Source of the DNA: a virus | DNA: 25,656 nt | Virus record (IMG/VR): IMGVR_UViG_3300031669_000215 | Span: 1 to 25,656 of that record | Direction: 5' to 3' (one strand) | Shown: positions 1 through 22,969 of the stretch, piece by piece | Layout: the number at the start of each line of letters is the position of its first letter | How positions within the stretch are numbered: the stretch's first letter is position 1 | Translations under genes and position numbers: made by a program | Notes under the pieces: model-generated | What the model saw: the letters and a program-made list of their open reading frames with translations, nothing else | Told to the model about the DNA's origin: nothing | The model's database searches: none

Positions 1-89
1 CATATTTCCCGCGTCTTATCCCGGATATCTTTTTCATTACGTTCCAAGCGCCAGGCATGCTCTGAATGTTCATTACAATCATTAGCCAT
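1..89 (-). CDS. Start of a small charged protein, cut by the window edge (possibly XhlA-like)
   Basis: Only the first 29 codons are present. The ATG overlaps the stop of the tail fibre gene as TAATG, which suggests translational coupling. The visible peptide is very polar, rich in Glu, Asp, Arg, Asn and His, and begins M-A-N-D-C-N-E-H-S-E-H-A-W-R-L-E-R. A short charged, helix-prone N-terminus with this kind of C/H/E/R pattern right after a tail fibre is reminiscent of XhlA/haemolysin-type phage membrane proteins, which end in a transmembrane helix. That C-terminus lies outside the window, so the family call is a guess. The reading frame itself is well supported by the overlap and by the absence of stops. 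Confidence 0.55.
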   Translation of the reverse strand, partial: MANDCNEHSEHAWRLERNEKDIRDKTREI

Positions 90-1678
90 TAAGTACCCCA
101 TTCACTGCTCAAATCCTCAATCCATCCACGGAAACGTGCCTCAAATTCCCCATCCAAATCCCCTGTCGAACGTCTCACATAATATTCAGATGATATTTTA
201 CGCAACGGCACCATCGCCTGAATAGTGTCATACGTTTCACTGCTCGCCGTATCCAGATTCAATGACTCCAGAATACTGTCCGCACTTCCTCCTCCGTCAT
301 CGCCCCTGATATCCAGTTGAGTAGCTGCTCCAGTATCCCCTCCTGATCTATAAGTAAATTGCATATCAGCGATCTTATACCAATAATCATTTACGTCGGT
401 GCGCAGTGGGACTGTAAATGATCTTGCGGTTGATCCTATGATCGCAGTATCTTCCAACTTCACGGACTCATTCAAAATAAATCTCTGCCCCTGTTTCACC
501 ATAGGAATTACGGCCCATCCTCCCGCCGCTCCGGGGATAGATCCGGATATGATAATATGTCCGATCCGTCTATACAAATCATACCCATCCCCAGCCACAT
601 CTGACATCAAATTTGATGCACTATAAGAAGTATCAAATCCGTATTCAGCAGCCGTCATCAATGTAGTTTTCCCCAGAGCAAATACAAATAGGGGCCGGAA
701 AGCCACTTCAACTGTACATCCAGAAGTATTGCTGGATGTGCGGTGAACCGTAATTGAAGTACCAGATTTCCCGACCACCCTGACGTATTTATTTGGAGCA
801 AAGCCCGTACTGCTGATAGCCACAAGATCACCCACGCTGATCTTCGTGGTATCGGTCATTGATGTAATGACAGCGCTCCCCGAAGTCTGTATACCGGAAA
901 ACGTAGTGGAGGGAGTGGCGGGCAAGTCCTCAAGCGCAGAAGCGCACCCCCCGACACCCGAACCCGCAACCCAGCTCACCAGAGCACTTCCGGCAACTAC
1001 ATTTTTATAATGATCGCCAGCATTGATTCGATATATCGGTTGCGCATAGGGGCCAAAGGGCCGCCCAATAGTCTTGCCTTCCGTTCTGAAATTCACTCTA
1101 AAATAATCACTGCCCCCCGTAATTACTTCATAATTGAATCCAGTTATTGTTCCGAACAGTTCATCATAATACAATCGCTCCGCCAGATTGTCAAGATCAT
1201 CAGTCACTGTTGTTCCCGATAGATATCCACAATCACTATCCACATCATCACTGCTTAGCGATCCAAGTAAAGTATCCAGAGCATTCAGCGCAGCTGTTAC
1301 TGTAGCTCCGGTGACAGTAGAAACATTCCCGATATCTGTACTATCCAACCCTCCGATATCAGAATCCAACTGATCCAACGCATCATCCACATCCGTTCCG
1401 GATACCCCTGAATCATTGTCTATCCGGGACGCAACCAGCTTAGCATTGATAGCCGTTTCCAATTGAAACATCTGAGCAGGAGTCTCAGTATCCGTTTGGA
1501 GGGATATACCCTCACCGCGAATGACGTTGGCTATTTCCTCCTGTATTGCGTTCATTTCCGCGTGCCTCAATTGCGTTGCGTCATAGCTCCCTCCCAATTG
1601 ATCGCGGTATATATCAACCGTTCCGTCGTATTTTCCCGTGGCCGTGGTTTTGCTGTCCGCGTTGGTACACCTGTGCAT
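89..1678 (-). CDS. Putative tail fibre / receptor-binding protein
   Basis: This 529-residue protein follows the gp48-type baseplate gene, which is where Mu-like phages encode the tail fibre. The SD AGGAGG lies 8 nt before the ATG. Residues about 25-85 are polar and probably helical. Residues 89-169 hold three copies of a roughly 20-residue element spaced 30 residues apart (pattern V-x-G-x-x-V-x-x-A-L-x-x-L-D), a pattern common in trimeric phage fibre shafts. Residues about 170-529 are Gly/Ser/Thr-rich and probably beta-structured, as expected for a distal binding domain. No enzymatic motif, chaperone domain or collagen-like repeat is visible. The fibre role is inferred from position and composition. 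No companion fibre assembly chaperone is visible; the next gene is cut off by the edge. Confidence 0.72.
   Translation of the reverse strand: MHRCTNADSKTTATGKYDGTVDIYRDQLGGSYDATQLRHAEMNAIQEEIANVIRGEGISLQTDTETPAQMFQLETAINAKLVASRIDNDSGVSGTDVDDALDQLDSDIGGLDSTDIGNVSTVTGATVTAALNALDTLLGSLSSDDVDSDCGYLSGTTVTDDLDNLAERLYYDELFGTITGFNYEVITGGSDYFRVNFRTEGKTIGRPFGPYAQPIYRINAGDHYKNVVAGSALVSWVAGSGVGGCASALEDLPATPSTTFSGIQTSGSAVITSMTDTTKISVGDLVAISSTGFAPNKYVRVVGKSGTSITVHRTSSNTSGCTVEVAFRPLFVFALGKTTLMTAAEYGFDTSYSASNLMSDVAGDGYDLYRRIGHIIISGSIPGAAGGWAVIPMVKQGQRFILNESVKLEDTAIIGSTARSFTVPLRTDVNDYWYKIADMQFTYRSGGDTGAATQLDIRGDDGGGSADSILESLNLDTASSETYDTIQAMVPLRKISSEYYVRRSTGDLDGEFEARFRGWIEDLSSEWGT
1172..1414 (-). repeat. Three 30-residue repeats in the fibre shaft
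   Basis: These are protein-level repeats at residues 89-108, 119-138 and 149-169 of the fibre protein. All share a hydrophobic-Gly-Thr-x-Val core followed by A/D-L-x-x-L-D/A. The exact 30-residue spacing suggests a repeated shaft segment, probably trimeric. DNA identity between copies is low, so the duplication looks old. Confidence 0.6.
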
Positions 1679-4401: not shown

Positions 4402-4890
4402 TTATCCCCTTCGTATAGTCTGTGCTTCCCAATTTAGGAAATATCTATAAGTAAATTCATTTGATTGAGTGACTCCTGGCCGTACTATGCGGATGGACAG
4501 GAACAATATTTGAGAACTGTATTTGGTTGCGGTCACGTCAATCTCGCTCGCCACTTCCCCGTCCAACATCCATTGAAGTGCCTCAAGACAATATTGACGA
4601 GATAATGTCAATACTTCATTGACATCTTTTCCCCTCTGTAATAACCAAAGCCTTGATCCAAATTCTATATCACTATCCAATACGGCCCCCGCCCACCATC
4701 CACCCTTGCCCCCGGAGTCATCTGGGAGCAACCGCTCATCATTCTCTCTCCTGTCGGAGAACAGAGATATGAGCACCGCTGTCTCCAGCCCTGAATCTCT
4801 GGCAGCGTCCCGTAAAGTCATATTGATATCTCCGTACCCATCCAACGGATCAAGAGTCATCATCATATCGCCTATATTTTCAAAATCCAT
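4402..4890 (-). CDS. Mu gp46-type baseplate wedge protein (gp25-like)
   Basis: This 162-residue protein matches the phage GP46 family, a Mu counterpart of T4 gp25/W25 that joins wedge to hub and initiates the sheath. Visible family marks are Y-G-D-I-N-M-T-L near residue 19, T-A-V-L-I-S-L-F-S-D-R-R near 37-48, G-W-W-A near 64, and F-G-S-R-L-W-L-L-x-R near 77-86. The start codon follows the previous gene's stop by one base, so translation is probably coupled. The SD is weak. Confidence 0.92.
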   Translation of the reverse strand: MDFENIGDMMMTLDPLDGYGDINMTLRDAARDSGLETAVLISLFSDRRENDERLLPDDSGGKGGWWAGAVLDSDIEFGSRLWLLQRGKDVNEVLTLSRQYCLEALQWMLDGEVASEIDVTATKYSSQILFLSIRIVRPGVTQSNEFTYRYFLNWEAQTIRRG

Positions 4891-4891
4891 A

Positions 4892-5290
4892 TCAAACCGC
4901 CTTCACTTTATTCTGTCCAGCGTCCGTGATTTCCACATCAAAAGTGATTGTGCAAGAAATAGGAGGAGAGCCGGGATTGGTTGCCCCTGTCGTGGTCACC
5001 CCTGTCACCTTATCCCCTAATCTCATCACAGCATCCCCTTCAGTAGTCACCGCTATTGCCGTTGCTAATATCTTCGCACTGGTGACAGTCCCCGGAGTCA
5101 CCGAACCGCAAGGAGGAGCCGGAGCCACAGCAACCACATTGGCTACACTAAATTCAATTTCCTTTTTGTATACTCCCTTGCCCTCCGCTTTCATCACCGT
5201 ACTGGGGACGGACAGAACCGTAATCACCCCCGATACCCCCGGAGTGATTATGGATAGAGTGCAATCTTGATTGGCTATAAATTCTGACAT
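4892..5290 (-). CDS. Hypothetical protein between spike and gp46; possible spike tip
   Basis: This 132-residue protein has no family I can name with confidence. Its ATG overlaps the gp45-type stop as TAATG, with GAGGTGA in the end of that gene as SD, so it should be made together with the spike. It is small, beta-prone and rich in Val, Thr, Gly and Pro, with three cysteines (near residues 10, 61 and 113) and no His cluster. The second half has E-G-D-A-V-M-R-L-G-D-K-V-T-G and ends E-I-T-D-A-G-Q-N-K-V-K-A-V. PAAR-like tip proteins of contractile machines share this size, gene position and repetitive beta character. A tip role is inference only. The gene itself is well supported by its packed position. 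Confidence 0.7.
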   Translation of the reverse strand: MSEFIANQDCTLSIITPGVSGVITVLSVPSTVMKAEGKGVYKKEIEFSVANVVAVAPAPPCGSVTPGTVTSAKILATAIAVTTEGDAVMRLGDKVTGVTTTGATNPGSPPISCTITFDVEITDAGQNKVKAV

Positions 5291-5763
5291 TAAGTCACCT
5301 CAAGATTAGAGCCGTTGACTGTGAATTTATCCGTAGTTATATTCACTTCAGATCCGGAAGCTATGATGGTGATATTTCCTCCGGCCGCTGTGATCTCAAT
5401 TCCGTCATCTTTCAACTTGATCAGGCATCCGCCCTTGTTATATAGAGCCGTATCACCTTCATTATCCAGAGCGGGCCGCCCATCCGCATTATCCGTCGAA
5501 ACCAGCAAGCCCTGTTCCCGATTTCCTCCGGGAAACAGGACAATGCCCTGCGCCCCCGTAACTGGCCAGGATGCCATGCCGTATGCTTGGAGAAGGGTGA
5601 CTGGTTTATCTTCCCCCGACAGCAACGCCACGGTCACTGTGGGCAGCTTTGTGGCCGTGTCGATGCTCTTCACGACGGCTTTCATAATCATCAGCGCAAC
5701 ACGCTTTCTGAGCGGAGAAATCCAACGCTCAAGCATATTCAATGTCCTATCATTACCAGCCAT
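5290..5763 (-). CDS. Baseplate assembly protein V / central spike (Mu gp45 type)
   Basis: This 157-residue protein has the gp45/gpV layout: an N-terminal R-x-L-x-x-L-E-R-W-I-S-P-L-R-K-R-V-A-L-M helix, an OB-fold-like middle (V-K-S-I-D...V-T-V-A-L-L-S-G-E, Y-G-M-A-S-W-P-V-T-G-A-Q-G-I-V-L-F-P-G-G), then a beta-helix of alternating I-x-I repeats. It punctures the outer membrane at the tail tip. It is shorter than P2 gpV and Mu gp45 (about 200) and lacks the C-terminal His-x-His apex that binds iron in those spikes. It overlaps the gpP-type gene by 11 bases. ATG at 5763 is the likely start; ATG at 5736 (residue 10) is an alternative. Confidence 0.88.
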   Translation of the reverse strand: MAGNDRTLNMLERWISPLRKRVALMIMKAVVKSIDTATKLPTVTVALLSGEDKPVTLLQAYGMASWPVTGAQGIVLFPGGNREQGLLVSTDNADGRPALDNEGDTALYNKGGCLIKLKDDGIEITAAGGNITIIASGSEVNITTDKFTVNGSNLEVT

Positions 5764-6817
5764 AGCCGTTCGCCGTTCCTGTTCTGACTTGTTTTTTCAC
5801 CAATGCTTTATAAGCATCTTCACGTCTCAACTCAATGATTGTTCTCGATCCCTCACCGATAGATTTGGAGTAATTGACCGAAGTGATCAGCATCTTTCTG
5901 TCCGTCAACTGTAGCTCAGGAATATTCACCGATACCAATCCATTCAAAGGCCAAAGCCTTCCGCTCCTCTGAGCCCAACCAGCAACAGTCACGGTCACTT
6001 GTGATGACTTCGCCGCTCTCACCGTCGCTTCCAGATCAGCCCGATTCTGCGCATCAGCAGTGTTCACAGTTTTTTCAGCAACTATCAGCTTCGGACGGAA
6101 GCGCTTTGATGCGATGATAGGATCTGAGGATGAAGCCTTGACTGATACTGTATTGCTGTTCCATCCGTCCCCTATCTCCCGCGCCTGTCCTTTCACTGTA
6201 TAATCAGAGAACCTATCTGAATAATCAATAGCAGCTGACGCTTCAATAATATTCTCCCCCGTCACCAGTTTATCGGTTGCGGGCTCCCCCTGACCTGGGC
6301 TGGTAATCAATAACCGTCCCCGCTCATCAGTTAAAAATAGTGCTCCCTCAAATTCATTCGCCCGCGCCAAAGACTCAAAAGGACTCTCCCCCGCCTGTAT
6401 GGTATGGGTAAATTTCTCAGCGGTCTGCCGCTCCGCAATCACTCTCACATCAAAAGGAGCGCACAGCGCACGGGCCAGTGTTGTGACTGTGACTGTATTG
6501 TTTCTCCAAGTCCCCGGCTCATTCATAGCCGAACAGTCAACCAGATCCGCTGTTGTATCCCTTCCTGAAACTGACAGCCCTCTGGAATCCTGTTTAATGG
6601 AGGGGCTGATGCGATCGATCAACCCGCGCATCACGGGAGTATTATCAATATCAATATCAGCTTCAACATTGGGAGTGATTGGCCATAGCTCTGGAGTGAA
6701 GCCATCTATCAATTCCAAAGAAAAGGAACCGCAAAGAGACTCAATGGAGCGGGAAATACTCGCCGTTTTCCAGCCAGTATAGTTCACCGTTCCTATTCTC
6801 AGATTGACTTCAGACAC
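5753..6817 (-). CDS. Baseplate hub protein (Mu gpP / late control D type)
   Basis: This 354-residue protein matches Mu gpP, a gp27-like trimeric hub beneath the tube that carries the spike. Family features include S-I-S-R-S-I-E-S-L-C-G-S-F-S-L near residue 22, the G-L-I-D-R-I-S-P segment, G-R-D-T-T-A-D-L-V-D-C-S near 86-97, Q-A-G-E-S-P-F-E-S-L-A-R (about 143-154) and a C-terminal S-x-N-Y-S-K-S-x-G-E-G-S-R-T-x-I-E-L-R-R-E-D-A-Y. The start codon is GTG, with GAGG 9 bases upstream, and overlaps the stop of the preceding gpN-type gene. The length is normal. Confidence 0.92.
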   Translation of the reverse strand: MSEVNLRIGTVNYTGWKTASISRSIESLCGSFSLELIDGFTPELWPITPNVEADIDIDNTPVMRGLIDRISPSIKQDSRGLSVSGRDTTADLVDCSAMNEPGTWRNNTVTVTTLARALCAPFDVRVIAERQTAEKFTHTIQAGESPFESLARANEFEGALFLTDERGRLLITSPGQGEPATDKLVTGENIIEASAAIDYSDRFSDYTVKGQAREIGDGWNSNTVSVKASSSDPIIASKRFRPKLIVAEKTVNTADAQNRADLEATVRAAKSSQVTVTVAGWAQRSGRLWPLNGLVSVNIPELQLTDRKMLITSVNYSKSIGEGSRTIIELRREDAYKALVKKQVRTGTANGYGW

Positions 6818-10707: not shown

Positions 10708-12216
10708 TTATATTGTCGGTGATTCCAACAAGAACTGAATAGTGCTCCCCACCACCCTCAATTGATTAATCAAATCAGGAGGAAGGAGGAAATCCAACCT
10801 ATCCGGATCAGATATACTCCGCGTCACCACCAGATCCTGTTTGAACTGATCGATATTTTCCACCAGTCCCAAGAACTCCCACGTGCGCGCCCGCGCTATC
10901 GCTTCGGCCCGGCCCACAGAAGGGGTCATGATCTGCTGTCCCGGAGCCACCATCACTCCGTCATTCGCCAACTTCGCTCGCGGATATTTTGTCAGTATAA
11001 TGTTTCTCCAGTCATACCGGATATACATTAATGTGAACAGAGTATTTGAGTTCAAATAAGCTATATCAGCCGCTCCCGCAGCGTTGGTCTGATACATTGT
11101 AATTGCCCGCTCAATCTGAACCGCTCCCCCGGATGACGGACGGATGGTTGCTATGCCGTCATAGAGGAGAGTATTGCGCTCTGCCAGTGTGAACTGTTCC
11201 GTGATATCGGGTTGGAGGGCTCCGATAATTTGAAGAGTCTGAAATGGCCGGGCCGGATCGATTTCAGCCTCAGTGGCAATCCGTCCTCCGGCTCCCGCCG
11301 CAATCCACCAGCTGCTTGTCGGGCCGCCCACTCCTAATTTTCCACCGTTCTCCAGCATGATCACGTGAGGACTGTTGCGCCCGTTTCCGTATGACGCAAG
11401 TCCAGAGAGAGTCCCGCGCTGGGAGGAGATATATATACCATCAATCATACGCAGGGCACCAAATCTGTCTGCCAACTCAGTCTCGATCAAAGTCATATTG
11501 GTCGCATCCTTGACCGATCCGATAATGATATTGAACCACGTATCACCCCAGCTGGACAGGGGAGAAGTGCTTGACCAATCGGGAGTCCCCGTGCCGCCGG
11601 AGAGAGTAGCCTGATGGCCCGATCCAGCGACAACAGCAGTGATGCCCGCCGGCAACTCCTCTCCGTCATTATAGTTGAGCCGGATATCCAACTCATTTCC
11701 CACTGTTCCATTTGTCCGACAAGTCACCACAGCCGTTCCCGGAGTAGTGGTGCCGTCGCAGGTCACTGGGAGAGAAGTCACGGCAATGATCGCCGTAGCC
11801 AGAGCGGATGAAACATCAGCGGCAGCATCTCCGGATTCAACAGCAACTTGGATAGTTGTTCCGTCAATATAAGCATATACCGTCCCTGCTGCTGTAGCTG
11901 TTCCGGTGAATACTATGCTTGCTGCTGCCTTGTTTCCTGTCGCTTCCTCGATCCCCTGCCCAAAAACTTCAACCAGTTTATTGTTCTGAAACCAAGCCTG
12001 AAACATTCTGTGAATCACGGATCCCGCGCCGAAATAGGTTGCTGCCTGATCAGCTGAAGTGACAGCCGAAATCTCATTGACTGCCTTCGTTCCCGTGCTC
12101 AATCTCTCCGCTAAAATTAGCACTTTGTATTTCAAAAGCGCCGGGCCAGAATATGCCCGTGACTCGTCAAATTCAACGTACACAAAAGGCACGCGAATTG
12201 TAGTGGGTATTGACAT
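10708..12216 (-). CDS. Tail sheath protein (Mu gpL type)
   Basis: This 502-residue contractile sheath subunit fits the Mu gpL family in length and layout. The N-terminus reads I-R-V-P-F-V-Y-V-E-F-D-E-S-R-A, followed by a Thr/Ala-rich insertion domain (about residues 100-215). The conserved C-terminal half includes L-F-T-L-M-Y-I-R-Y-D-W-R-N, the K-Y-P-R-A-K-L-A-N-D segment and D-P-D-R-L-D-F-L-L-P-P-D-L-I-N-Q-L. Its presence makes this a contractile-tailed phage. AGGAGGG lies 7 bases before the ATG. It is followed by the tube gene after 33 bases. Confidence 0.96.
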   Translation of the reverse strand: MSIPTTIRVPFVYVEFDESRAYSGPALLKYKVLILAERLSTGTKAVNEISAVTSADQAATYFGAGSVIHRMFQAWFQNNKLVEVFGQGIEEATGNKAAASIVFTGTATAAGTVYAYIDGTTIQVAVESGDAAADVSSALATAIIAVTSLPVTCDGTTTPGTAVVTCRTNGTVGNELDIRLNYNDGEELPAGITAVVAGSGHQATLSGGTGTPDWSSTSPLSSWGDTWFNIIIGSVKDATNMTLIETELADRFGALRMIDGIYISSQRGTLSGLASYGNGRNSPHVIMLENGGKLGVGGPTSSWWIAAGAGGRIATEAEIDPARPFQTLQIIGALQPDITEQFTLAERNTLLYDGIATIRPSSGGAVQIERAITMYQTNAAGAADIAYLNSNTLFTLMYIRYDWRNIILTKYPRAKLANDGVMVAPGQQIMTPSVGRAEAIARARTWEFLGLVENIDQFKQDLVVTRSISDPDRLDFLLPPDLINQLRVVGSTIQFLLESPTI

Positions 12217-13016: not shown

Positions 13017-13352
13017 TCAAATCCCTTCGTTCAACGTCACCACTGAAATCCCTGTCCCGTCCGGTTGCGATGAAACCACGCGCCAACGGGCTCCCCGTAT
13101 CTCCAACCAATCTCCCTGGACAGGGGGATGGGGTAATTTGCGGGACTGAATAAGCACGTAAGGCTCCCGCCCCTGCACCATCGCCCCGCTGTCAATATCT
13201 ATCGCCAAATACTCCCTGTCGAAAATCAAATTGATATCCATAGTCACACCCCACTCAGGGCTGTGATATACGGCCGCCTCAGCAAATTCACTGGAACCGA
13301 CGTGCAGAAATACATCATCAATATCATCCTCCAGCATCTGGAAAAACGGAGA
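13017..13352 (-). other. C-terminal head-tail joining (gpFII-like) domain segment
   Basis: This segment encodes residues 800-910 of the giant neck protein. It has the size of a complete standalone gpFII-type joiner and sits where lambda encodes FII, after the capsid genes and before the tail genes. No separate FII-like gene is seen elsewhere in the window. Confidence 0.65.
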
Positions 13353-15749
13353 GAGCGGAATCAATCGCACCACCGCTGTCCCGAAGGACTCCCCAGAGAC
13401 AATTCCAGAAGGGGATATGATCTGACGATATTGTAGTAAAGCCGTCCCAAAGGCTTCCCCGGAAGCGATCCCACCAGCATCATCGATAAATTGACCAGTA
13501 AAAACGCTGCTGACTCCGAAGGCTTCAGCTGATACAATTCCAGTGGGAAGTATACTCACGGCTCCCGGAGTCACAGTCACAGCTCCAAAGGCTTCCGCTG
13601 TCGTGATCCCGGAGGGGAGTATATCCACAGGCCCAACAGTGATCACAGCCGTCCCAAATATTTCCTCAGTCCCAATCCCTCCCGGCCCGACAGGGGCCGC
13701 ACCAGGGGAGACAGAAGGAATACCAAAGGCTTCCGCTGTGGTTATTCCTGATGGTAGAATGCTGACGGCCCCCGTAGTGACCAAACATACCCCGAAGGCT
13801 TCTGACGTGGAAATACCCACAGCTATGACGGAGACAGGCCCCGTAGTGATCACCGCTGTCCCGAAGGCTTCCCCGGAAATAATCCCGGATACTTCGATAG
13901 CCTGGCCCACTGCCGGAGTCCCGAATGCTTCCTGCGATGGAATAGATGCCGGGAGAATGCTGACGGCTCCGGGGGATACCGTAGCCAATCCGAAGGCTTC
14001 CCCGGAGGAAATACCCACAGCTATGACGGAGACAGGCCCAACAGTGATCACCGCTGTCCCGAACGCTTCCGCAGAAATAATCCCCCCAGCGCCGGATAGA
14101 GTCACAGCGCCAGGGGTCACGACGTGGCTGCCAAGTGCTTCCGCCGTAGGGATACCCGTGGGGGAAATAGTCACCACTCCTGTAGTAATTACGGGAGTGC
14201 CGAAGGCTTCAGCAGAAGCTATCCCCGAAGAAACCAAAGGCACTGAGCCCACACTGATCACCGCTGTCCCGAACGCTTCCCCGGAAGCTATCCCGGAGGG
14301 AGCCAGCGTCACCGCTCCCACCCCCACTGTTGCTGTTCCGAAGGCTTCCGCAGATGCAATTCCCCCCGCCGCCGCAATACTCCTCCCAATGATAGGAGTC
14401 CCGAAGGCTTCCGCTGACGGGATACCGCTGGGGAGGAGGGAGACAGCGCCAGGGGACAGGGATGCCGTGCCGAATGCTTCCGCTGATGCGATCCCCGAAG
14501 GGCTGACCGTCACCGCTCCCGCCCCCACTGTTGCTGTTCCGAACGCTTCCACCGTTCCGATACCGGAAGGGAGGAGAGAAACTGAACCTGTAGAAACAAT
14601 CGCAGTGCCGAACGCTTCCGCTGATGTGATAGAGGAAGGGGAAAGAGAAACTGAGCCCGTAGTAATTACGGGAGTGCCGAAGGCTTCAGCAGATACAATA
14701 CCTGTGGGAACTATTGTCAATGTGCTTGTTGGAGTCTCCGGAGTCCCCGCGCTGGAAAATGTTGAAGGTGAACTAAAATTATTATATTCAACAGTAATCC
14801 AGTCCGCCGTTCTGACTGTCTTTGCCACACGAAGCTCATCATACCCACCATCAAACGCGGCATCTGCGTGAACATGACCAATATTGATTCCGAATCCTGC
14901 CGTATTACCGATTGTTGCCGTTAGGCTATTTGTCAGAGCTGCAGCACCATCCAAATACGCACGCCGCGTAGTACCATCAAAAGTGAATACTATCTTCCTC
15001 CAGCTTGCTGACGTTCCTCCAGCCTCCCAGTCATTCCCGTTTATATTATAGCGTGGATTACCACCTGAAAATTTCTCACCATAATCAGGTGCTCCCCAAT
15101 CATTTGCTCCTTTTCCCCATCCTGATCTATATCCCCATGTATCTACTCGTTCATACCATGACATTGTGAGGGCTGTTGTGGCCTGAATAGCAGCGATATT
15201 TGACGCACCAAGTACATCAGTTGTGCCGTTGAAGTCCTGTGCTTTGCTCCCGGAAAACGGGCCGTTGACTTCTGTTGAAGTGCCTGTTGCTGTATTATTA
15301 TTTGTGGTGCTGTCCTTGATGGTAGTGGATGTCAAATCATTCATGTGATAGACAGCGCCGAAACCTGTCCAAACATTATCGGAGCCGTAAGTGCTATTGC
15401 GCGCCGGCATAGTCTCCGACGGGGCATTATACCATAGATAGATTTCAGTATCAACGGAGGAGGAAAGACTGGGTATTTTGACGTACACCTCCGCAAGCCC
15501 GTTCGCCGGGTCATTGTCCAGTAGGATCCGGACAATTTCAACGCATATCTGATTAGCTCCGGCCAGATCACTGGATATCCGGATATCCCCGCCGTCGGAG
15601 CGTGCCGGATAGCTCCCATCAGCGTCAAACATCTCCGACGGCAACTGACCAACAGTCAGCAATACCGGGATATCAGTTTGCGTGCTAGGAACTTTGGTAT
15701 GGTCGATGGTGAGCTTGCACCTTCGGCCCCATCCAGTAGGAAAAGCCAT
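13017..15749 (-). CDS. Giant neck protein: DUF2341/LamG-like region, 20 SAEAFGT repeats, gpFII-like head-tail joining domain
   Basis: This 910-residue ORF has three parts. Residues 1-130 resemble DUF2341 (G-W-G-R-R-C-K-L-T-I, D-I-P-V-L-L-T-V, A-E-V-Y-V-K-I-P, E-I-Y-L-W-Y). Residues about 131-335 resemble a LamG/concanavalin-type lectin fold (V-Y-H-M-N-D, Q-D-F-N-G-T-T-D, W-R-K-I-V-F-T-F-D-G-T-T-R-R-A-Y-L-D-G, Y-D-E-L-R-V-A). Residues 347-795 are 20 copies of a 22-23-residue repeat around S-A-E-A-F-G-T. Residues 800-910 match lambda gpFII-type joiners in layout (D-D-I-D-D-V-F, I-F-D-R-E-Y, G-D-W-L-E-I-R-G-A-R-W-R-V), which are normally about 110-117 residues alone. No SD precedes Met805, so the fusion looks real. 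The N-terminal parts would project from the neck. The joiner call rests on pattern and position. Confidence 0.8.
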   Translation of the reverse strand: MAFPTGWGRRCKLTIDHTKVPSTQTDIPVLLTVGQLPSEMFDADGSYPARSDGGDIRISSDLAGANQICVEIVRILLDNDPANGLAEVYVKIPSLSSSVDTEIYLWYNAPSETMPARNSTYGSDNVWTGFGAVYHMNDLTSTTIKDSTTNNNTATGTSTEVNGPFSGSKAQDFNGTTDVLGASNIAAIQATTALTMSWYERVDTWGYRSGWGKGANDWGAPDYGEKFSGGNPRYNINGNDWEAGGTSASWRKIVFTFDGTTRRAYLDGAAALTNSLTATIGNTAGFGINIGHVHADAAFDGGYDELRVAKTVRTADWITVEYNNFSSPSTFSSAGTPETPTSTLTIVPTGIVSAEAFGTPVITTGSVSLSPSSITSAEAFGTAIVSTGSVSLLPSGIGTVEAFGTATVGAGAVTVSPSGIASAEAFGTASLSPGAVSLLPSGIPSAEAFGTPIIGRSIAAAGGIASAEAFGTATVGVGAVTLAPSGIASGEAFGTAVISVGSVPLVSSGIASAEAFGTPVITTGVVTISPTGIPTAEALGSHVVTPGAVTLSGAGGIISAEAFGTAVITVGPVSVIAVGISSGEAFGLATVSPGAVSILPASIPSQEAFGTPAVGQAIEVSGIISGEAFGTAVITTGPVSVIAVGISTSEAFGVCLVTTGAVSILPSGITTAEAFGIPSVSPGAAPVGPGGIGTEEIFGTAVITVGPVDILPSGITTAEAFGAVTVTPGAVSILPTGIVSAEAFGVSSVFTGQFIDDAGGIASGEAFGTALLQYRQIISPSGIVSGESFGTAVVRLIPLSPFFQMLEDDIDDVFLHVGSSEFAEAAVYHSPEWGVTMDINLIFDREYLAIDIDSGAMVQGREPYVLIQSRKLPHPPVQGDWLEIRGARWRVVSSQPDGTGISVVTLNEGI
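13365..14711 (-). repeat. Array of 20 degenerate SAEAFGT repeats (about 67 bp each)
   Basis: Twenty in-frame units carry E-A-F-G, or E-A-L-G, E-I-F-G or E-S-F-G in three units, spaced mostly 21-24 residues. The typical unit is G-I-x-S-A-E-A-F-G-T-A-V-I-T-x-G-x-V-S-x-x-P-S. The DNA core GAAGCCTTCGG is conserved across many units, while linkers vary. It is coding throughout. Confidence 0.95.
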
Positions 15750-17181: not shown

Positions 17182-17613
17182 TCATTCCTCGATCTCAAAC
17201 GCGGAGGCATCAGCAATTATCTTCTCCGCCATGGCTTCCCCGATACCCTTGACATTGAGCGCCATCAGGCTCTCTTTGTCCAAGGCTTTCAGATCCGCAA
17301 CCCCCGCCACTCCCATCTCCAAAAGCGCTTCCGCTATCGGACGGTTGATGCCTTTGACCTGCTTCAGTTCAGCCACAGCTTCAGCCCTCTCATCCTCAGT
17401 CATCCCTTCATCCTCCGGGGCTTCCGGGGCTTCCGGGGCTTCCGGGGCTTCCGGGGCTTTCGGGGTCACTGGGGAAGGAGAGCCCGCCGCTTCAAGCCTC
17501 ACAGCTTTTAGTAACAGGAGCCGCCGTGCTTCCACATCTTCGATTTCTATGAGAGAGCCGGGGGGAATATACTGCCCCCCCAACTTCACCATTCCCACGG
17601 TCAAAACCTTCAT
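17182..17613 (-). CDS. Helix-hairpin-helix protein in the gpFI position
   Basis: ATG 17613, with AGGAGG six bases upstream, gives 143 residues. An in-frame ORF extends to 17787 but overlaps the capsid gene and lacks an SD. Residues 1-45 form a small beta-rich segment (V-K-L-G-G-Q-Y-I-P-P-G-S-L-I-E-I). Then comes a Pro/Glu/Ala linker with E-A-P units (about 50-67), and from about residue 70 two helix-hairpin-helix-like motifs: V-K-G-I-N-R-P-I-A-E-A-L-L-E-M-G and L-N-V-K-G-I-G-E-A-M-A-E-K-I-I. HhH motifs bind DNA non-specifically. Just after the capsid gene, lambda encodes gpFI, which helps DNA packaging, so a packaging role is plausible but inferred. Confidence 0.82.
   Translation of the reverse strand: MKVLTVGMVKLGGQYIPPGSLIEIEDVEARRLLLLKAVRLEAAGSPSPVTPKAPEAPEAPEAPEAPEDEGMTEDERAEAVAELKQVKGINRPIAEALLEMGVAGVADLKALDKESLMALNVKGIGEAMAEKIIADASAFEIEE
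17412..17465 (-). repeat. 9-bp tandem repeat encoding Glu-Ala-Pro units
   Basis: Four perfect copies of CTTCCGGGG (+ strand) occupy 17421-17456, with one-mismatch copies at 17412-17420 and 17457-17465. The unit is a multiple of three, so changes in copy number keep the frame and only lengthen the linker. Confidence 0.95.
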
Positions 17614-17647
17614 GCCATACCTCCTGTGTATAGAAATACTCTTTTGC

Positions 17648-18757
17648 TTACGCAAGCACCTGCACGCAAACAAATCCATCAACCTGGTGCATTGCCACCA
17701 GCGGAGCGCTCTGGAGCATGATGAACCGCGCCGACGGGTCATCCTCAGTCCAGGACTTCGGGAACCGGGCAACCGCCCCGGTGGCATCCAAGTCCTGTAT
17801 TGCTCCGTAGTGCCGGGCAGTGCGGGCTTGAGTCGATCCCATGATCACCTTTTTCGCGGGCATTAGCGGCCCTTCAGTGTCAGTAGAATCATCCACAAAC
17901 CACTCATCATAGACGTAAAGATCAACCCCAACGTCCTTGATACGGCCGTAGTATATTGCGCCTGTGGCCAGGATAGCCGGATCAATCAGGCCCAAATCAA
18001 TTCTCCGTGTATCAAGTTTATTTTGAACATCAGCGTGATCCAAGAAAGCATCAGCGGCATCCGCTCCCATGACAACAGTATCGGGATTGATTCCGCTGTC
18101 CTTCGCAATTATCCGCCGCCAAGCCCTCAAGTCCTCCAGAGGAGTACTGGCTGCGTTGCTCCAAACGTCCGTGCCGCCCAGAGTGATAATATGATCTGCT
18201 GACATCCCGAAATTAATAATTTCATCAATTCCTTCGCCCAGCACATGAACCTGTCCGGACTGGAGCAATTGAGCCGCCATCCACTCCTCCCGGCGAGTAA
18301 TCATTTCATCCAGCGTCCGAAGATCCTTGCCAATCTGGCGAGCCGCTCTCTGAGCCGGGCCGTCATTAGCACTGTAGATAGTAGTGCCCATCTCTCTCTT
18401 CAGGATATCGGCAGCAGTAGTCACCATTTTGGGCTTGATATACGGGGGCTTATAACTCCGCGTAGTATAGCCCAACCGCTCCACTACCTTCCCCTGCTGA
18501 ACTGGGGAGACAAAAGGGGCCAAGCGCCGCTTTCCCTTGTGAATATCAATATCCACGTAGGCAGTCTGGGAAGTCTCCGAAGCACGGAAAAACGTGGTCA
18601 GAAAAAATGTGCGCACCGGCTTCATCTGTTCCAAAGCCGTGAGCATTATCCGTGTATCGAAAAGATCAATTGCTCCCCCTTGCCCCATGTTCCTGCCGAC
18701 GGTCCAAAGGGCTGCGAAAATAACTGAGAATAATCTCAGTGGATTTAAAAACTTCAT
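17648..18757 (-). CDS. Major capsid protein (lambda gpE family)
   Basis: This HK97-fold capsid protein of the gpE family forms the shell. I place the start at ATG 18757, seven bases after AGGAGT, rather than GTG 18766, giving 369 residues (lambda gpE 341). Family marks are Y-I-K-P-K near residue 94, N-K-L-D-T-R-R near 232, the G-S-T-Q-A-R-T-A-R-H-Y-G-A-I-Q-D segment near 303-318, then A-R-F-P-K-S-W and the C-terminal M-L-Q-S-A-P-L-V...F-V-C-V-Q-V-L-A. The first ~20 residues (N-P-L-R-L-F-S-V-I-F-A-A-L-W) are unusually hydrophobic. Confidence 0.95.
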   Translation of the reverse strand: MKFLNPLRLFSVIFAALWTVGRNMGQGGAIDLFDTRIMLTALEQMKPVRTFFLTTFFRASETSQTAYVDIDIHKGKRRLAPFVSPVQQGKVVERLGYTTRSYKPPYIKPKMVTTAADILKREMGTTIYSANDGPAQRAARQIGKDLRTLDEMITRREEWMAAQLLQSGQVHVLGEGIDEIINFGMSADHIITLGGTDVWSNAASTPLEDLRAWRRIIAKDSGINPDTVVMGADAADAFLDHADVQNKLDTRRIDLGLIDPAILATGAIYYGRIKDVGVDLYVYDEWFVDDSTDTEGPLMPAKKVIMGSTQARTARHYGAIQDLDATGAVARFPKSWTEDDPSARFIMLQSAPLVAMHQVDGFVCVQVLA

Positions 18758-18807
18758 ATCCTTCACTCCTGTTGATAGTGTTATAAAAACGCTTGTTTGA
18801 AATTCAA

Positions 18808-18832
18808 TTCAAACCGTTCAAACCGTTCAAAC
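18808..18832 (-). repeat. 9-bp tandem repeat and weak hairpin between decoration and capsid genes
   Basis: TTCAAACCG (+ strand) occurs 2.8 times, running up to the decoration gene stop codon. The last copy joins an imperfectly placed AT-rich hairpin (stem 18795-18801 with 18808-18814), with five T downstream on the minus strand. It may modulate RNA processing or stability but is too weak to call a terminator. Confidence 0.6.
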
Positions 18833-19776
18833 TACACTGAAACCGACGGCCTCAAGAACATGCTTTGAGCTTCCATCTCCTCCCGAACGTCCTCAATGTC
18901 CGTCCCTGTCGCCAGCGTGATTTCTCTCTGGTTGAATTGTCCTGTCCGATATCCTGTGCTCCGGACAGCCGCCGCAGAGGCATCCACGTCCTCAGCCAGC
19001 ACGGCATAGGGCTTGCTGGATCCGTCTGTTGCTGTCTTATCGCACAAAACAACCTGACGCGGATCTATTGTGACAGTGACTGTGAAATAATCGCCCACTA
19101 TGAAATCAGTGGAGCCGTCGGTGATAATTCCCGCCAGCTGATCATTGTCGAAGGAGGCAGTGCCGCCCGCTCCGCCTGAAATCGTGATCCCGGTCTGGAT
19201 ATCGTTTCCGTCAGGATCAGCGATTTTGAATACTCCGCCGTGAGTCGCTGCCGCCGTACATTCGATCACATACGCGCCCAGCTTCGTTCCCCGCCGTCCT
19301 TCAATCGCTGTCAATGTGCCGTTGCCTGTCCCGGTGACTGCCACAGTCGCAGGAACACCATCTGAAACGGCAATGGTGGCCGTGTCGCCCAAAATAAAAT
19401 CAGTGGAACCGTCAGTGATAGTGAAAGTAATTTCACGGTTGGAGAATACTCCTGTGCCGCCAGCTCCGGCCGTAATCTTCACCGTGCCAATGATATCGCC
19501 GTCGGGGTTGACTACCTGAAAAGTACCGCCGTGCGTTTCCACGGCAATGCAGGTTGCCACATAACTCCCGCGCTTTGTATCCGGGCCGCCTGTGACCACT
19601 GTGCATGTTCCGTTGCCCGTTCCGGCAATAGTTCCTGTCGTGGGGACGGATGCCTTGACGCGCCCCAAGACGGCTCCCCGCGCCAGAATACCACTGGCAA
19701 CCAGCACGTCCTCAGTTACAAGGGAAAAATCCCCTGCGATCAAGTTATCATGTTCAAAAGTACCGATCTGAGTCAT
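18832..19776 (-). CDS. Head decoration protein (lambda gpD family) with two inserted repeat domains
   Basis: This 314-residue protein is about three times lambda gpD (110). Residues 1-45 (F-E-H-D-N-L-I-A-G-D-F-S-L-V-T-E-D, G-I-L-A-R-G-A-V-L-G-R-V) and 240-314 (V-V-L-C-D-K-T-A-T-D-G-S-S-K-P-Y-A-V-L-A-E-D-V-D-A) form the usual gpD core. Between lie two homologous modules, residues 52-136 and 149-235. Each starts G-T-G-N-G-T, continues G-x-Y-V-x-x-C and T-H-G-G-x-F, and ends I-T-D-G-S-T-D-F-I-x-G-D. gpD trimers plug and stabilise the expanded capsid, so the modules should be exposed on the surface. GGGAGAG lies before the ATG. It precedes the capsid gene as in lambda. Confidence 0.9.
   Translation of the reverse strand: MTQIGTFEHDNLIAGDFSLVTEDVLVASGILARGAVLGRVKASVPTTGTIAGTGNGTCTVVTGGPDTKRGSYVATCIAVETHGGTFQVVNPDGDIIGTVKITAGAGGTGVFSNREITFTITDGSTDFILGDTATIAVSDGVPATVAVTGTGNGTLTAIEGRRGTKLGAYVIECTAAATHGGVFKIADPDGNDIQTGITISGGAGGTASFDNDQLAGIITDGSTDFIVGDYFTVTVTIDPRQVVLCDKTATDGSSKPYAVLAEDVDASAAAVRSTGYRTGQFNQREITLATGTDIEDVREEMEAQSMFLRPSVSV
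19069..19623 (-). repeat. Two roughly 90-residue tandem modules inside the decoration protein
   Basis: Module 1 spans residues 52-136 and module 2 residues 149-235, offset by 97 residues. They share G-T-G-N-G-T, R-G-x-K/T-x-G-x-Y-V, A-x-x-T-H-G-G-x-F, G-A-G-G-T and I-T-D-G-S-T-D-F-I. Both are Gly/Thr-rich and beta-prone. Confidence 0.88.
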
Positions 19777-19855: not shown

Positions 19856-20275
19856 TTATTCCCCGCTGGCTCCCGCCACCATAGCTCCCATCAAAGCCGC
19901 GTCCTGAGCTTCCTCCCCGTTCCCGCCGTCCTGAGTAAGTCCCTGGATTTTTTCAGCCAATTTGTTCGCATCTTTCTGAACAGAAACCCCGGCCCCCTCC
20001 GCCTTCGCAGCCTGAGCATCCAGGATCAACTTTGCCACGCTTTCCGCTGTCGCTTCCGGCTTCAACAGATTTTCCGTAACAATATGCTCATATCCAGCCG
20101 GGACTTTCAGCGCCTGTATAGACGTTATGCGCGCCCGTTCTGCTTCGGCTCCGGCTTTCGCCCCTTCGCCGTGAATTGCACTGTGAACCTCCGGGCTCCC
20201 GTCTTTCACGCCTTCAACTGTGACAGTCAAAGGGCTGTCTGCTGTGCTTTCGTTTCCTGCTGTTCCCTTGCCCAT
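19856..20275 (-). CDS. Internal-start scaffolding protein (Nu3-like)
   Basis: Inside the protease gene and in the same frame, AGGAGG lies 6 bases before ATG 20275 (Met309). Starting there gives a separate 139-residue product beginning M-G-K-G-T-A-G-N-E-S-T. It is rich in Ala, Glu, Lys and Gly, with helical coil-prone segments (E-A-E-R-A-R-I-T-S-I-Q-A-L-K and L-D-A-Q-A-A-K-A-E-G), as expected of scaffolds. Lambda makes Nu3 the same way from inside gene C. Scaffold guides prohead assembly and is then removed by the protease. The SD is seen directly; the scaffold role follows from the lambda parallel. Confidence 0.82.
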   Translation of the reverse strand: MGKGTAGNESTADSPLTVTVEGVKDGSPEVHSAIHGEGAKAGAEAERARITSIQALKVPAGYEHIVTENLLKPEATAESVAKLILDAQAAKAEGAGVSVQKDANKLAEKIQGLTQDGGNGEEAQDAALMGAMVAGASGE

Positions 20276-21199
20276 ATCTATACCTCCTGAAAAAAGTGAT
20301 TGTGATGGTTCAAAATGCTGCTCTATTAATAAACTGATGACACCTTCCAGCGATCCAGTCTCATCAGCCATTTTCCTTGTCACCGCTTCGGCCCCCACGA
20401 TGAGTCCCCCGCGTCCGAAATCCGTCAATACTGTCTCCTCCTCCAGCCCACGATACCTTGCCACGGATCCGACAAAAACTTTTGCCAGATCATTGACCAC
20501 TCGCTGTATTTCCTCCCGGCCCTCATCAGTCAACGGGCTGGCCCGCTTCTTGGGGCTGATGCTTGATATGATTTCAATAGCCCGGACTCCCCGCGCCTCA
20601 TCGCGTTTCGTTGTATCCGTATACCCGGCCACCACGCCAATAGATCCCAGCTCAGAAGATTCATCCACGTATATCTTCGACGTTCCAGCTGCGATCCAAT
20701 ACGCTGCCGAAGCACCCAACCCAGATATATAGGATACTACGGACTTTTTCCCCTGTGCCGCAAACAGCATAGCGGCAAATTCACCGATACCTGTGATATT
20801 TCCTCCGGGGCTGTCGATATTCAAAACAATAGAATGAATTGAAGGATCCCGTAAAGCCGCATTGAAATCCAATGTCAGCTCTGAGATAGAAACCCCCCCG
20901 GAGAACTGAGTGAACAGATTTGCACGTGGAAAGATAGGGCCGATCACTGGGAGAATAGCCACGCCGTCCCTTCGGGTCACGTTCTTTGTCCCTGGCAACG
21001 GATCATCTCGCTGCGCCAGTATCGCATCCGGGGATAGCTCCCCCTCCTCCAGATATTTCAAATACTCTCCGTGTCCGTGCATCGCCTTCGCCAGCTCAAA
21101 CGGGTCAAAATCTCTCTCCACCACGCGGAGTATCTGATCCAGGGCTTCCCCTGTCATGGCCCATCTCATTGATAAAATTGTTTCAATTATACGGCTCAT
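19856..21199 (-). CDS. Capsid maturation protease, S49 family (lambda gpC type), with C-terminal scaffold domain
   Basis: This 447-residue protein has an S49/ClpP-like peptidase domain at about residues 78-295: V-L-N-I-D-S-P-G-G near 125-133, the nucleophile in L-G-A-S-A-A-Y (Ser164), and a candidate catalytic lysine in S-P-K-K-R-A-S-P (Lys217 or 218). Residues 309-447 are the scaffold region, which is also made separately from an internal start. The gpC family processes scaffold and portal during prohead maturation. The SD GGAGGAGGAG lies just before ATG 21199. The gene stands between portal and decoration genes as in lambda. Total length is close to lambda gpC (439). Confidence 0.94.
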   Translation of the reverse strand: MSRIIETILSMRWAMTGEALDQILRVVERDFDPFELAKAMHGHGEYLKYLEEGELSPDAILAQRDDPLPGTKNVTRRDGVAILPVIGPIFPRANLFTQFSGGVSISELTLDFNAALRDPSIHSIVLNIDSPGGNITGIGEFAAMLFAAQGKKSVVSYISGLGASAAYWIAAGTSKIYVDESSELGSIGVVAGYTDTTKRDEARGVRAIEIISSISPKKRASPLTDEGREEIQRVVNDLAKVFVGSVARYRGLEEETVLTDFGRGGLIVGAEAVTRKMADETGSLEGVISLLIEQHFEPSQSLFSGGIDMGKGTAGNESTADSPLTVTVEGVKDGSPEVHSAIHGEGAKAGAEAERARITSIQALKVPAGYEHIVTENLLKPEATAESVAKLILDAQAAKAEGAGVSVQKDANKLAEKIQGLTQDGGNGEEAQDAALMGAMVAGASGE

Positions 21200-21241: not shown

Positions 21242-22924
21242 TCAGCCGCCCCGATCATCTGACGCGGGATTGGTCTCAACTCCGGCTTCCTGTTCTCCGG
21301 GCTCCGGCTCCGGGGCCGATAAATCTAATTCATCCAACTTCCGTTCCTGTCTGCTCAACCGCTCCATAGCCGCTTCCCAGTCTCCGCCGTTGATAGCTGT
21401 ATACTCATCTTCATATGTACTTAATCGGGAAGCGATCCGTATTTTGGCCGCATTCGTTTCCTTCACGGGGTCAATTTGTCCCTGTCCCGGCCCAACCCAT
21501 ACCGCCCGCGTCCACGCGGCCCGGATCGCCGGATCATCGAAGAAACCGGGAGCCGATATGCGATTGAGCATTACCGCTTCGGTCAAAAATTCCTCATAGA
21601 CAGGTTGGCACAATTTATTAGCCAACCACGTTCTCCGCCGCTTAAAAAATTTCCATGCTTCCAACATCGATGCCCGGCTTGCGGAGTAGCTGGATTGATA
21701 GGACGCCATCAGGACTTCATAGGGAACTTCAATTGACGCTCCTATCTCTTTCACGATAGCATTGAAAAACGGTTCAAACGAATCATTGGGACGCTTCGGA
21801 TCCGCAATATCAACGCTCTGCCCCTCCCCCAACTCCACCACTGATCCGCTCCCCATCTCCTGTAAATTATCGTCTTTCTTGGAAGCACTACGGCCCGCGC
21901 TATCGTTGCCGCTGCTTTGATCCAATACGCTCTCCCCTTCTGTAAACGCATCCATGAGTCCGCCGGGCTGAACGTCCGATTTTATGAAGGCCGTGAAAAA
22001 AGATGTAATCACCGCCGCCATCAACTCCGCTTCTGATAGCCGGGTCAACTGTTTCAATTGTCCGATCACGTTGGCCAGCAGGGGCATTCCCCTCCGCTGT
22101 CCTATCCGCTCCCGCTCCATCAGATGGAGTATATTTTTTCGGCCGCTCTCCCCCCCGTAAGCTGGCACCCGCGTCCATGTTCCAGCATTCGTGAAGGTCA
22201 GACCAAACGGGGCTTTATGTACCCAATACGCTATGGGAGCGCCGTATTGATCTTGCTCGATACCGCCCACGATACCCTCCCGCCCGGCATTGAGCGATCC
22301 GCCCAATGATAATCCAGTATCGGGGAGATTATTTGGATTGGAGATATAATCACCCTCAATCAATTGCACGCGGAGAGAGTATGGCCAATTCCCCTGAACC
22401 CCCAAATACGGGAGAGCCACAAAAGCATCCCCGTTCATTAGCACAGAGAGCATAGCCAATCCCTGTAGCCATTCAAAATTATCTGTCCTCGTGATATCGC
22501 AATTACTCGATCCAGCCCACATCCGCCATTCTCGCTCAATCACGCGCTCCACCGCTTCGGCTTGCTCATCGGAGAGTCCCAGCGTCTCCCTGTCCAACTG
22601 TGCCTGTAAAGTGAGCCCTGAGCCCACTACATTGGTGCGGATGCGCCGGAGCGCCGCACTGGCAACAGCCGTATTCATAAATAGATCGCGGGAGGAAGCA
22701 CGGGAATCGGGAAGCGCTTGCAGCGCATCCTCATCCGCCGAACGTGCAAAAGGATTCCAACCGCGCACAGATCGCCGTGGCGATCCTCCAGTAACATACC
22801 CCGTTGTTTGATCAATATAGGAAAGGGCCGCCCGCGCTCTCAAACGCTTGACGGCCCTCACGGGATCAATCCAACCAACCAAACGGTCAACGGGATTTGG
22901 ACGAAATAGGGATTTGGTATTCAT
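21242..22924 (-). CDS. Portal protein (lambda gpB family)
   Basis: This portal forms the dodecameric vertex for DNA passage. I choose ATG 22924 (M-N-T-K-S-L-F-R-P-N-P), giving 560 residues. The upstream extension to 22960 would start at TTG and add a Phe/Ile-rich peptide from a T-rich spacer. Family marks include N-P-F-A-R-S-A-D-E-D-A-L, L-F-M-N-T-A-V-A-S-A-A-L-R-R-I-R-T-N-V-V-G-S-G-L near residue 85-105, W-A-G-S-S-N-C-D, and Y-E-V-L-M-A-S-Y-Q-S-S-Y-S-A-S-R-A-S-M-L-E-A-W near residue 410-430. The C-terminus is acidic and Pro-rich, a common portal tail. The SD is weak (AGGG close to the ATG). Confidence 0.94.
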   Translation of the reverse strand: MNTKSLFRPNPVDRLVGWIDPVRAVKRLRARAALSYIDQTTGYVTGGSPRRSVRGWNPFARSADEDALQALPDSRASSRDLFMNTAVASAALRRIRTNVVGSGLTLQAQLDRETLGLSDEQAEAVERVIEREWRMWAGSSNCDITRTDNFEWLQGLAMLSVLMNGDAFVALPYLGVQGNWPYSLRVQLIEGDYISNPNNLPDTGLSLGGSLNAGREGIVGGIEQDQYGAPIAYWVHKAPFGLTFTNAGTWTRVPAYGGESGRKNILHLMERERIGQRRGMPLLANVIGQLKQLTRLSEAELMAAVITSFFTAFIKSDVQPGGLMDAFTEGESVLDQSSGNDSAGRSASKKDDNLQEMGSGSVVELGEGQSVDIADPKRPNDSFEPFFNAIVKEIGASIEVPYEVLMASYQSSYSASRASMLEAWKFFKRRRTWLANKLCQPVYEEFLTEAVMLNRISAPGFFDDPAIRAAWTRAVWVGPGQGQIDPVKETNAAKIRIASRLSTYEDEYTAINGGDWEAAMERLSRQERKLDELDLSAPEPEPGEQEAGVETNPASDDRGG

Positions 22925-22969
22925 TATCCCTATTATAGAAAAAATAAAAACAAAAAACAAGGTTCAAAC

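Follow-up and report, generated by a model that had tools for sequence, protein, structure and literature searches.

A gpD-type phage decoration protein with two tandem inserts resembling the flagellar FlgL D2 domain, and apparent nesting of the same module in relatives

The decoration protein of phage lambda is present at about 400 copies on a T=7 head. The solved chains of lambda gpD, phage 21 SHP and YSD1_16 have 102-124 residues, with no room for additional modules, whereas the decoration protein described here, which resembles them in core fold (Z 12.1-12.8), in its PHROG_49 match and in gene order, has an insert of 195 residues. Passages of a review of decoration proteins cover the gpD folds as well as Ig-like decoration proteins (PMC7602432), and passages of a survey of tail sheaths describe extra Ig-like domains and a domain layout likened to that of flagellin (PMC9230969). 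Phage Ig-like domains (Big2, I-set and FN3; T4 Hoc, T5 pb10 and N4 gp17) are beta-sandwiches borne on many unrelated virion proteins, for which a role in weak adhesion is proposed in passages of PMC7602432, PMC9230969 and PMC10276861. The module described below differs from them in that its best structural match is a flagellar D2 domain, in its insertion at a hairpin tip, and in its apparent self-nesting.

The flagellar outer domains (D2 of FlgL and FlgK, D2-D3 of FliD) are like the module in fold, in profile similarity and in having one outer domain nested in another; the module differs from them in its virion carrier, its tandem copies and, in relatives, an apparent self-nesting up to four deep. 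The sheath of phage XM1 likewise has, by description, an outer domain of flagellar type on a protein of the phage surface: the authors of PMC10457771, in the passages covered, liken a domain inserted in this sheath to FliD D3 and regard it as unique to XM1. The present module also occurs in sheaths. It is carried as well by some cement proteins of the E217 gp24/Pam3 gp6 kind (L157 and L063), whose Pfam cement family differs from the family of the carrier studied here. The module is not described in the passages covered on JBD30 (PMC11445458) and R4C (PMC10276861), and in the titles and abstract openings of the open-access literature there was no report of the module family, of gpDs bearing it in tandem or of its self-nesting, which is weak evidence of absence.

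The decoration gene and its internal duplication

The window, which is the whole stretch of DNA analysed, comprises one entire virus record (25,656 bases). The phage has a contractile tail and head genes of the lambda type, which lie on the minus strand in the order gpA terminase, lambda-family portal, S49 protease, decoration protein and gpE capsid, with tail sheath, tail tube and Mu-like baseplate genes further on, also on the minus strand (Table 1). The placement of the decoration gene between protease and gpE capsid genes is common to phiNP, KLER1-1 and SNW-1; in phiNP and SNW-1 one additional gene separates the protease from gpD.

Table 1. Positions in the window of the decoration gene, its parts and the genes used to place it
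Feature	Position	Strand	Basis
gpE-type major capsid protein	17648..18766	-	Pfam Phage_cap_E 7.5e-81
gpD-type head decoration protein, two inserted modules	18832..19776	-	ORF of 314 aa
gpD core, C-terminal part, aa 241-314 with stop	18832..19056	-	tblastn and alignment to module-less decoration proteins
module 2, aa 143-240, 51% identical to module 1	19057..19350	-	alignment, model, half-module HMMs
module 1, aa 46-142, FlgL-D2-like beta-sandwich	19351..19641	-	self-alignment, AF2 model and VIA
gpD core, N-terminal part, aa 1-45	19642..19776	-	alignment to module-less gpD of phiNP, KLER1-1 and SNW-1
S49 head maturation protease	19856..21199	-	Pfam Peptidase_S49 1.7e-19
lambda-family portal protein	21242..22960	-	Pfam Phage_portal_2 5.4e-98
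tail sheath protein	10708..12216	-	Pfam Phage_sheath_1 3.6e-19

The core of the window protein was assessed by profile search and from a predicted structure. The head decoration family PHROG_49 matched residues 5-312 at E 2.4e-17, and Pfam HDPD matched residues 21-304 at E 1.7e-6 with 28.6 bits, which is 0.5 bit short of its cut-off of 29.1; no Pfam family rose above its cut-off for this protein. HDPD was found at E ≤0.1 in 62 of the 63 members of alignment A5. The AF2 monomer model, made from a 63-sequence alignment, had a mean pLDDT of 89.2 and a pTM of 0.72, and VIA comparison placed 106 of its residues, from within the range 3..309, on lambda gpD (8xqb_J0, Z 12.3); the corresponding values for phage 21 SHP (1td3) and YSD1 (6xgq) were Z 12.5 and 12.8. 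On this model the window protein is predicted to be of the gpD (beta-tulip) decoration fold with its core split by an insert.

The point of insertion was located with module-less relatives. Both flanks of the insert can be aligned with the gpDs of phiNP, KLER1-1 and SNW-1 and with one from contig L014; in these proteins the first strand ends with "..GxVLG" and the sequence resumes shortly before "DGS..P..IL..D.DA". The turn at the tip of one core beta-hairpin is thus replaced by two tandem modules of about 95 residues each, of the FlgL-D2 type, and the alignment puts all 195 inserted residues at this tip.

That the two modules are homologous was evident from self-alignment, which scored 240 compared with a mean of 39.7 (sd 7.1, maximum 73) for 2000 shuffles. 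In the local alignment 47 of 92 aligned residues were identical, at a register offset of 97 residues (98 past one gap), and PHROG_49, HDPD and lambda gpD each span the insert. An earlier note on this DNA, made from the sequence alone, had described a gpD-type decoration protein whose core is split by two homologous beta-rich modules at this offset, and the predicted structure and the relatives bear it out; the interval 19069-19623 that it gave differs from the bounds of the module pair by no more than about 20 bases. At the DNA level the repeat was visible only as a single 36-nt stretch of 86% identity, so that the pair is an old duplication, recognizable at the protein level. The GC content is 0.554 in the modules and 0.556 in the core of the gene. 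Residues conserved among modules include G, P and a DG..DF..GD..F motif.

In a tree of modules, each of the window copies grouped with the same-position copies of other phages and far from its own partner (the nearest neighbours of copy 1 were in L015, L002 and L014, and those of copy 2 in L009, L003 and L002), which argues that the tandem pair is old and has been maintained. The possibility of an assembly artefact was rejected, as tandem copies group by position across many contigs; the possibility that the module is a feature specific to the window phage was also rejected.

Fold of the module and its relation to flagellar outer domains

Each copy of the module has eight strands in the AF2 model. 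The best VIA match was to FlgL (5ziz_A, Z 10.0, rmsd 2.2 Å, 83 residues aligned, model residues 43..138), over a range that we take to be its D2 domain; further matches were FlgK (Z 7.2 and 6.9), Wzc and a flagellin. Foldseek with the model gave FlgK at E 3.4e-5 and FlgL with a probability of 1.00. When a profile of 49 modules was compared by hhalign with 28 FlgL sequences from fetched loci, 80 columns aligned to FlgL D2 with 79% probability and E 1.7e-5, while nine controls (two reversed, six column-shuffled and one gpD C-core) gave a probability of at most 0.8% and E of at least 0.07. Comparison of module and FlgL by hmmsearch with single sequences was weak (best E 0.026). The profile comparison supports the module as a probable distant homologue of FlgL D2.

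Sequence searches of family collections and solved structures gave the module no name. There was no family for the module in Pfam, NCBIfam or PHROGs; the 49 modules had no convincing match in NCBIfam and Pfam, with weak hits to WZC_N in 4 and FlgD_ig in 2; and PDB profile searches with the module found nothing under E 0.1, the 49-module profile finding no chain (best E 0.14). Weak matches of full proteins were to the Wzc N-domain (best 5.6e-5) and to T4 gp18 domain I (7.5e-5). Wzc was also among the structural matches of the models (Z 6-7.6), and both of these domains may be folds related to the module. Ig-like families were at noise level for the window protein (Big_8, E 0.94); among the 49 modules there was one match to Big_8 and one to Big_9 (E 0.06-0.07), and in L036 Big_8 reached 24.1 bits against a cut-off of 22.9. 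Against distant folds the module reaches moderate Z values, and a function does not follow from a shared fold. The window protein is not itself flagellar, because the module is flanked by gpD core; the D0/D1 helices of flagellar proteins are absent around the domain.

Carriers, copy number and nesting

Relatives were collected in a module scan (the best 80 of 250 confirmed matches kept), a nested-junction scan whose query was designed to pick up nested proteins (the best 80 of at least 414 confirmed) and a scan of prokaryote genomes (all 40 confirmed matches kept). One tblastn used a hand-written consensus as query, and its identities are not natural identities. With the earlier loci the sample held 205 loci and 208 module ORFs, 177 of them distinct, among the matches listed. 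Of these 177, 140 had the gpD C-core behind the module, 15 were sheath-sized and 22 were of other kinds; among the last, 9 of the 22 were nested, and four of these nine (L090, L091, L092 and L094) align with the gpD relatives but miss the C-core cut-off. Sheath carriers were identified by phrog_23 and phrog_165, and in L105 by Phage_sheath_1. E217-type cement carriers were identified by Phage_cement (7.4e-27 in L157, 4.6e-15 in L063). A phrog_687 structural protein with a module adjoins the tape measure gene in Ab19 and Bhz54 (in the PHROG scan, Ab19 only). The module is not confined to phages, because a deltaproteobacterial MAG (L205:1-4791) has a 1597-aa ORF with Big_1/Invasin_D3 domains and one module. 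Prokaryote genomes carrying the module were, by their titles, mostly of environmental Proteobacteria. This range of carriers points to a promiscuous surface-display domain, not a cement. Within the window, the half-module HMMs were significant for the decoration ORF only, and there was no detectable module in the tail sheath. In L062, L064, L039, L068 and L040 the module is in the sheath, and the same loci have a gpD-core ORF that was scored as without module; that of L040 has a weak B half.

Relatives with other module numbers, a search for which the earlier note had proposed, were found for every number from zero to four. When the two halves of the module are written A and B, the 177 distinct carriers among the matches listed comprised 116 of AB, 29 of ABAB (the type of the window), 19 of AABB, 6 of AAABBB and 2 of AAAABBBB, counts that are not frequencies because one scan was aimed at nested cases. 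Rarer strings in the same sample were ABB (2), ABABABB (1), AABBB (1, interrupted by the contig end) and B (1, likewise cut). Both ABB proteins have a weak second A hidden in the sequence, and ABABABB (L036) can be read as one AB and then a second module that has another inserted in a later loop. Phages with one-module gpD include Haddon, Presto and LPPA56, which are phages of P. aeruginosa, and cyanophage Cy-LDV1. In L014 two adjacent gpD genes (4542-5495 and 5525-5884) precede the capsid gene; only one of them bears modules, two in tandem, and mixed trimers of both could set the module density on the head. The nested gpD gene at L109:3620-4535 looks frameshifted, with modules and gpD C-core in two overlapping frames.

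We examined whether strings such as A-A-A-B-B-B are modules nested in one another or consist of separate repeats of A and of B making up an elongated beta structure, in which case the tandem of the window would be a distinct arrangement. In a MAFFT alignment (A4) single-module relatives pair with the initial A and the final B in most of the nested proteins, and the remainder is an insert at the hairpin turn. The numbers of A and B are equal in the 27 proteins of the AABB, AAABBB and AAAABBBB classes among the matches listed, which counts against separate repeats; unbalanced strings are few and are explained by the hidden A of ABB and by the contig edge at which AABBB ends. The D3 domain of FliD is inserted within its D2 domain. 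The model of an AAABBB protein (L092; 22 sequences, pLDDT 82.9, pTM 0.60) matched FliD D2-D3 entries over residues 93..290 (Z 5.9, 74 residues aligned), as predicted for a nested A2-(A3B1)-B2 because D3 sits inside D2, while the inner module alone (140..230) matched FlgL D2 at Z 9.4; a FliD D2 split by D3 that aligns across the inner module is a further point against separate repeats. The comparison of outer and inner halves gave a mixed result that leaves some room for them: the outer A matched best in 14 of 23 nested proteins and the outer B in 14 of 23, with both doing so in 8 of 23. In the five nested cases where the nearest single-module core scored at least 300, L007, L092, L093 and L097 fit the nested arrangement and L184 did not. 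The lengths of A and B halves did not covary significantly in 155 free modules (rho 0.12, p 0.14). HDPD scores in the nested proteins scanned ranged from 4e-27 (L184) to no match (L091, L092 and L094). On balance we hold separate repeats to be quite improbable and nesting to be very probable; that two independent insertion loops were used, one in L016 and L036 and another in the rest, is also probable, at a somewhat lower level of confidence.

The nested reading can be extended to the family as a whole, and here our confidence falls to slightly above even. The module, of flagellar D2 type, would spread among phage surface proteins and insert into its own hairpin at one of two loops, depending on lineage, giving Russian-doll pillars with as many as four units on capsids and with two on sheaths, and the tandem of the window would be a product of the same process. 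If this is true, phage heads, phage tails and bacterial flagella have one outer-surface domain in common, which can grow longer both by nesting and by tandem repetition, and self-insertion to a depth of four is an unusual mode of protein domain evolution. The interest of the module lies in its flagellar relationship, in its spread over virion surfaces and in the apparent self-nesting, which is the part that seems novel; a gpD-type decoration protein is in itself of a known kind.

Display on the virion, possible role, and other proteins of the window

From the gpD family we infer that trimers of the core would bind to the outside of the capsid, with the tandem modules standing off the outer surface. 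An outward direction is suggested by insertion at a hairpin tip and by the presence of the same module in sheath and cement proteins, and a site at which the number of modules ranges from zero to four is hardly likely to be turned towards the shell. The module would be a "guest" domain that moves between virion proteins by recombination and multiplies either in tandem, as in the window, or by insertion into its own hairpin, as in relatives with up to four nested units. Its role would be a low-affinity, multivalent contact with the bacterial surface or with extracellular polymers that holds the virion near its hosts.

Modules on a capsid protein might instead strengthen the capsid, with neighbouring trimers touching through them to form an outer cage like that of the P74-26 Dec arms. 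It is consistent with a cage that both tandem copies, conserved position by position, seem to be constrained, and that gpD-type proteins stabilise capsids, with an interlocked outer cage described for P74-26 in passages of PMC6775164 and PMC7602432. However, a gpD cage is impossible in a tail sheath, in another cement protein, in the phrog_687 protein or in the Big_1/invasin-like protein, all of which carry the module, and module number within a single core lineage ranges from one to four; we regard a cage as distinctly unlikely here, and cementing as unlikely to be the general role of a domain shared by gpD, other cement, sheath and a bacterial surface protein. The promiscuity of carriers and the variable copy number would suit modules that have no specific partner and serve as surface bulk (for spacing, solubility or shielding), multiplied by recombination under little selection, and the pairing in L014 of a two-module gpD gene with a module-less one would suit them also. 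Against such bulk, module residues (G, P and the motif given above) are strongly conserved and the tandem copies are old and position-specific, which suggests selection on fold or function, and we consider bulk unlikely.

Weak multivalent binding to polymers of the bacterial surface or matrix is the most economical reading and the one we prefer as most likely; it agrees with the role proposed for phage Ig-like domains in passages of PMC7602432 and PMC9230969. Animal mucus is not a favoured target, because the prokaryote carriers are mostly environmental Proteobacteria, and the putative role in mucus raised in the earlier note is weakly motivated. For the explanation taken whole (a gpD core, tandem guest modules of FlgL-D2 type displayed outward, and adhesion to polymers) we judge the chances to be a little better than even. 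The gpD cores with zero to four modules form a natural series for testing the role of head surface domains, and the one-module P. aeruginosa phages Haddon, Presto and LPPA56 make functional tests practical.

Three other minus-strand genes of the window were observed in passing. The ORF at 17182-17787 encodes 201 aa, with a tandem repeat rich in APE/EAP (9-nt unit, 17414-17465) and, after it, a C-terminal helix-hairpin-helix domain. The 539-aa protein encoded at 1695-3314 has Phage_Mu_Gp48 at residues 373-538 and, upstream of it, a long stretch rich in G-T motifs that is possibly an inserted beta-propeller. The 910-aa protein encoded at 13017-15749 has a Laminin_G_3 domain, a C-terminal Phage_attach (head-tail attachment) domain and an ExFG motif that occurs 20 times at a spacing of 20-24 (mostly 23) residues; it would be unusual for an attachment protein to be joined to a repeat stalk.
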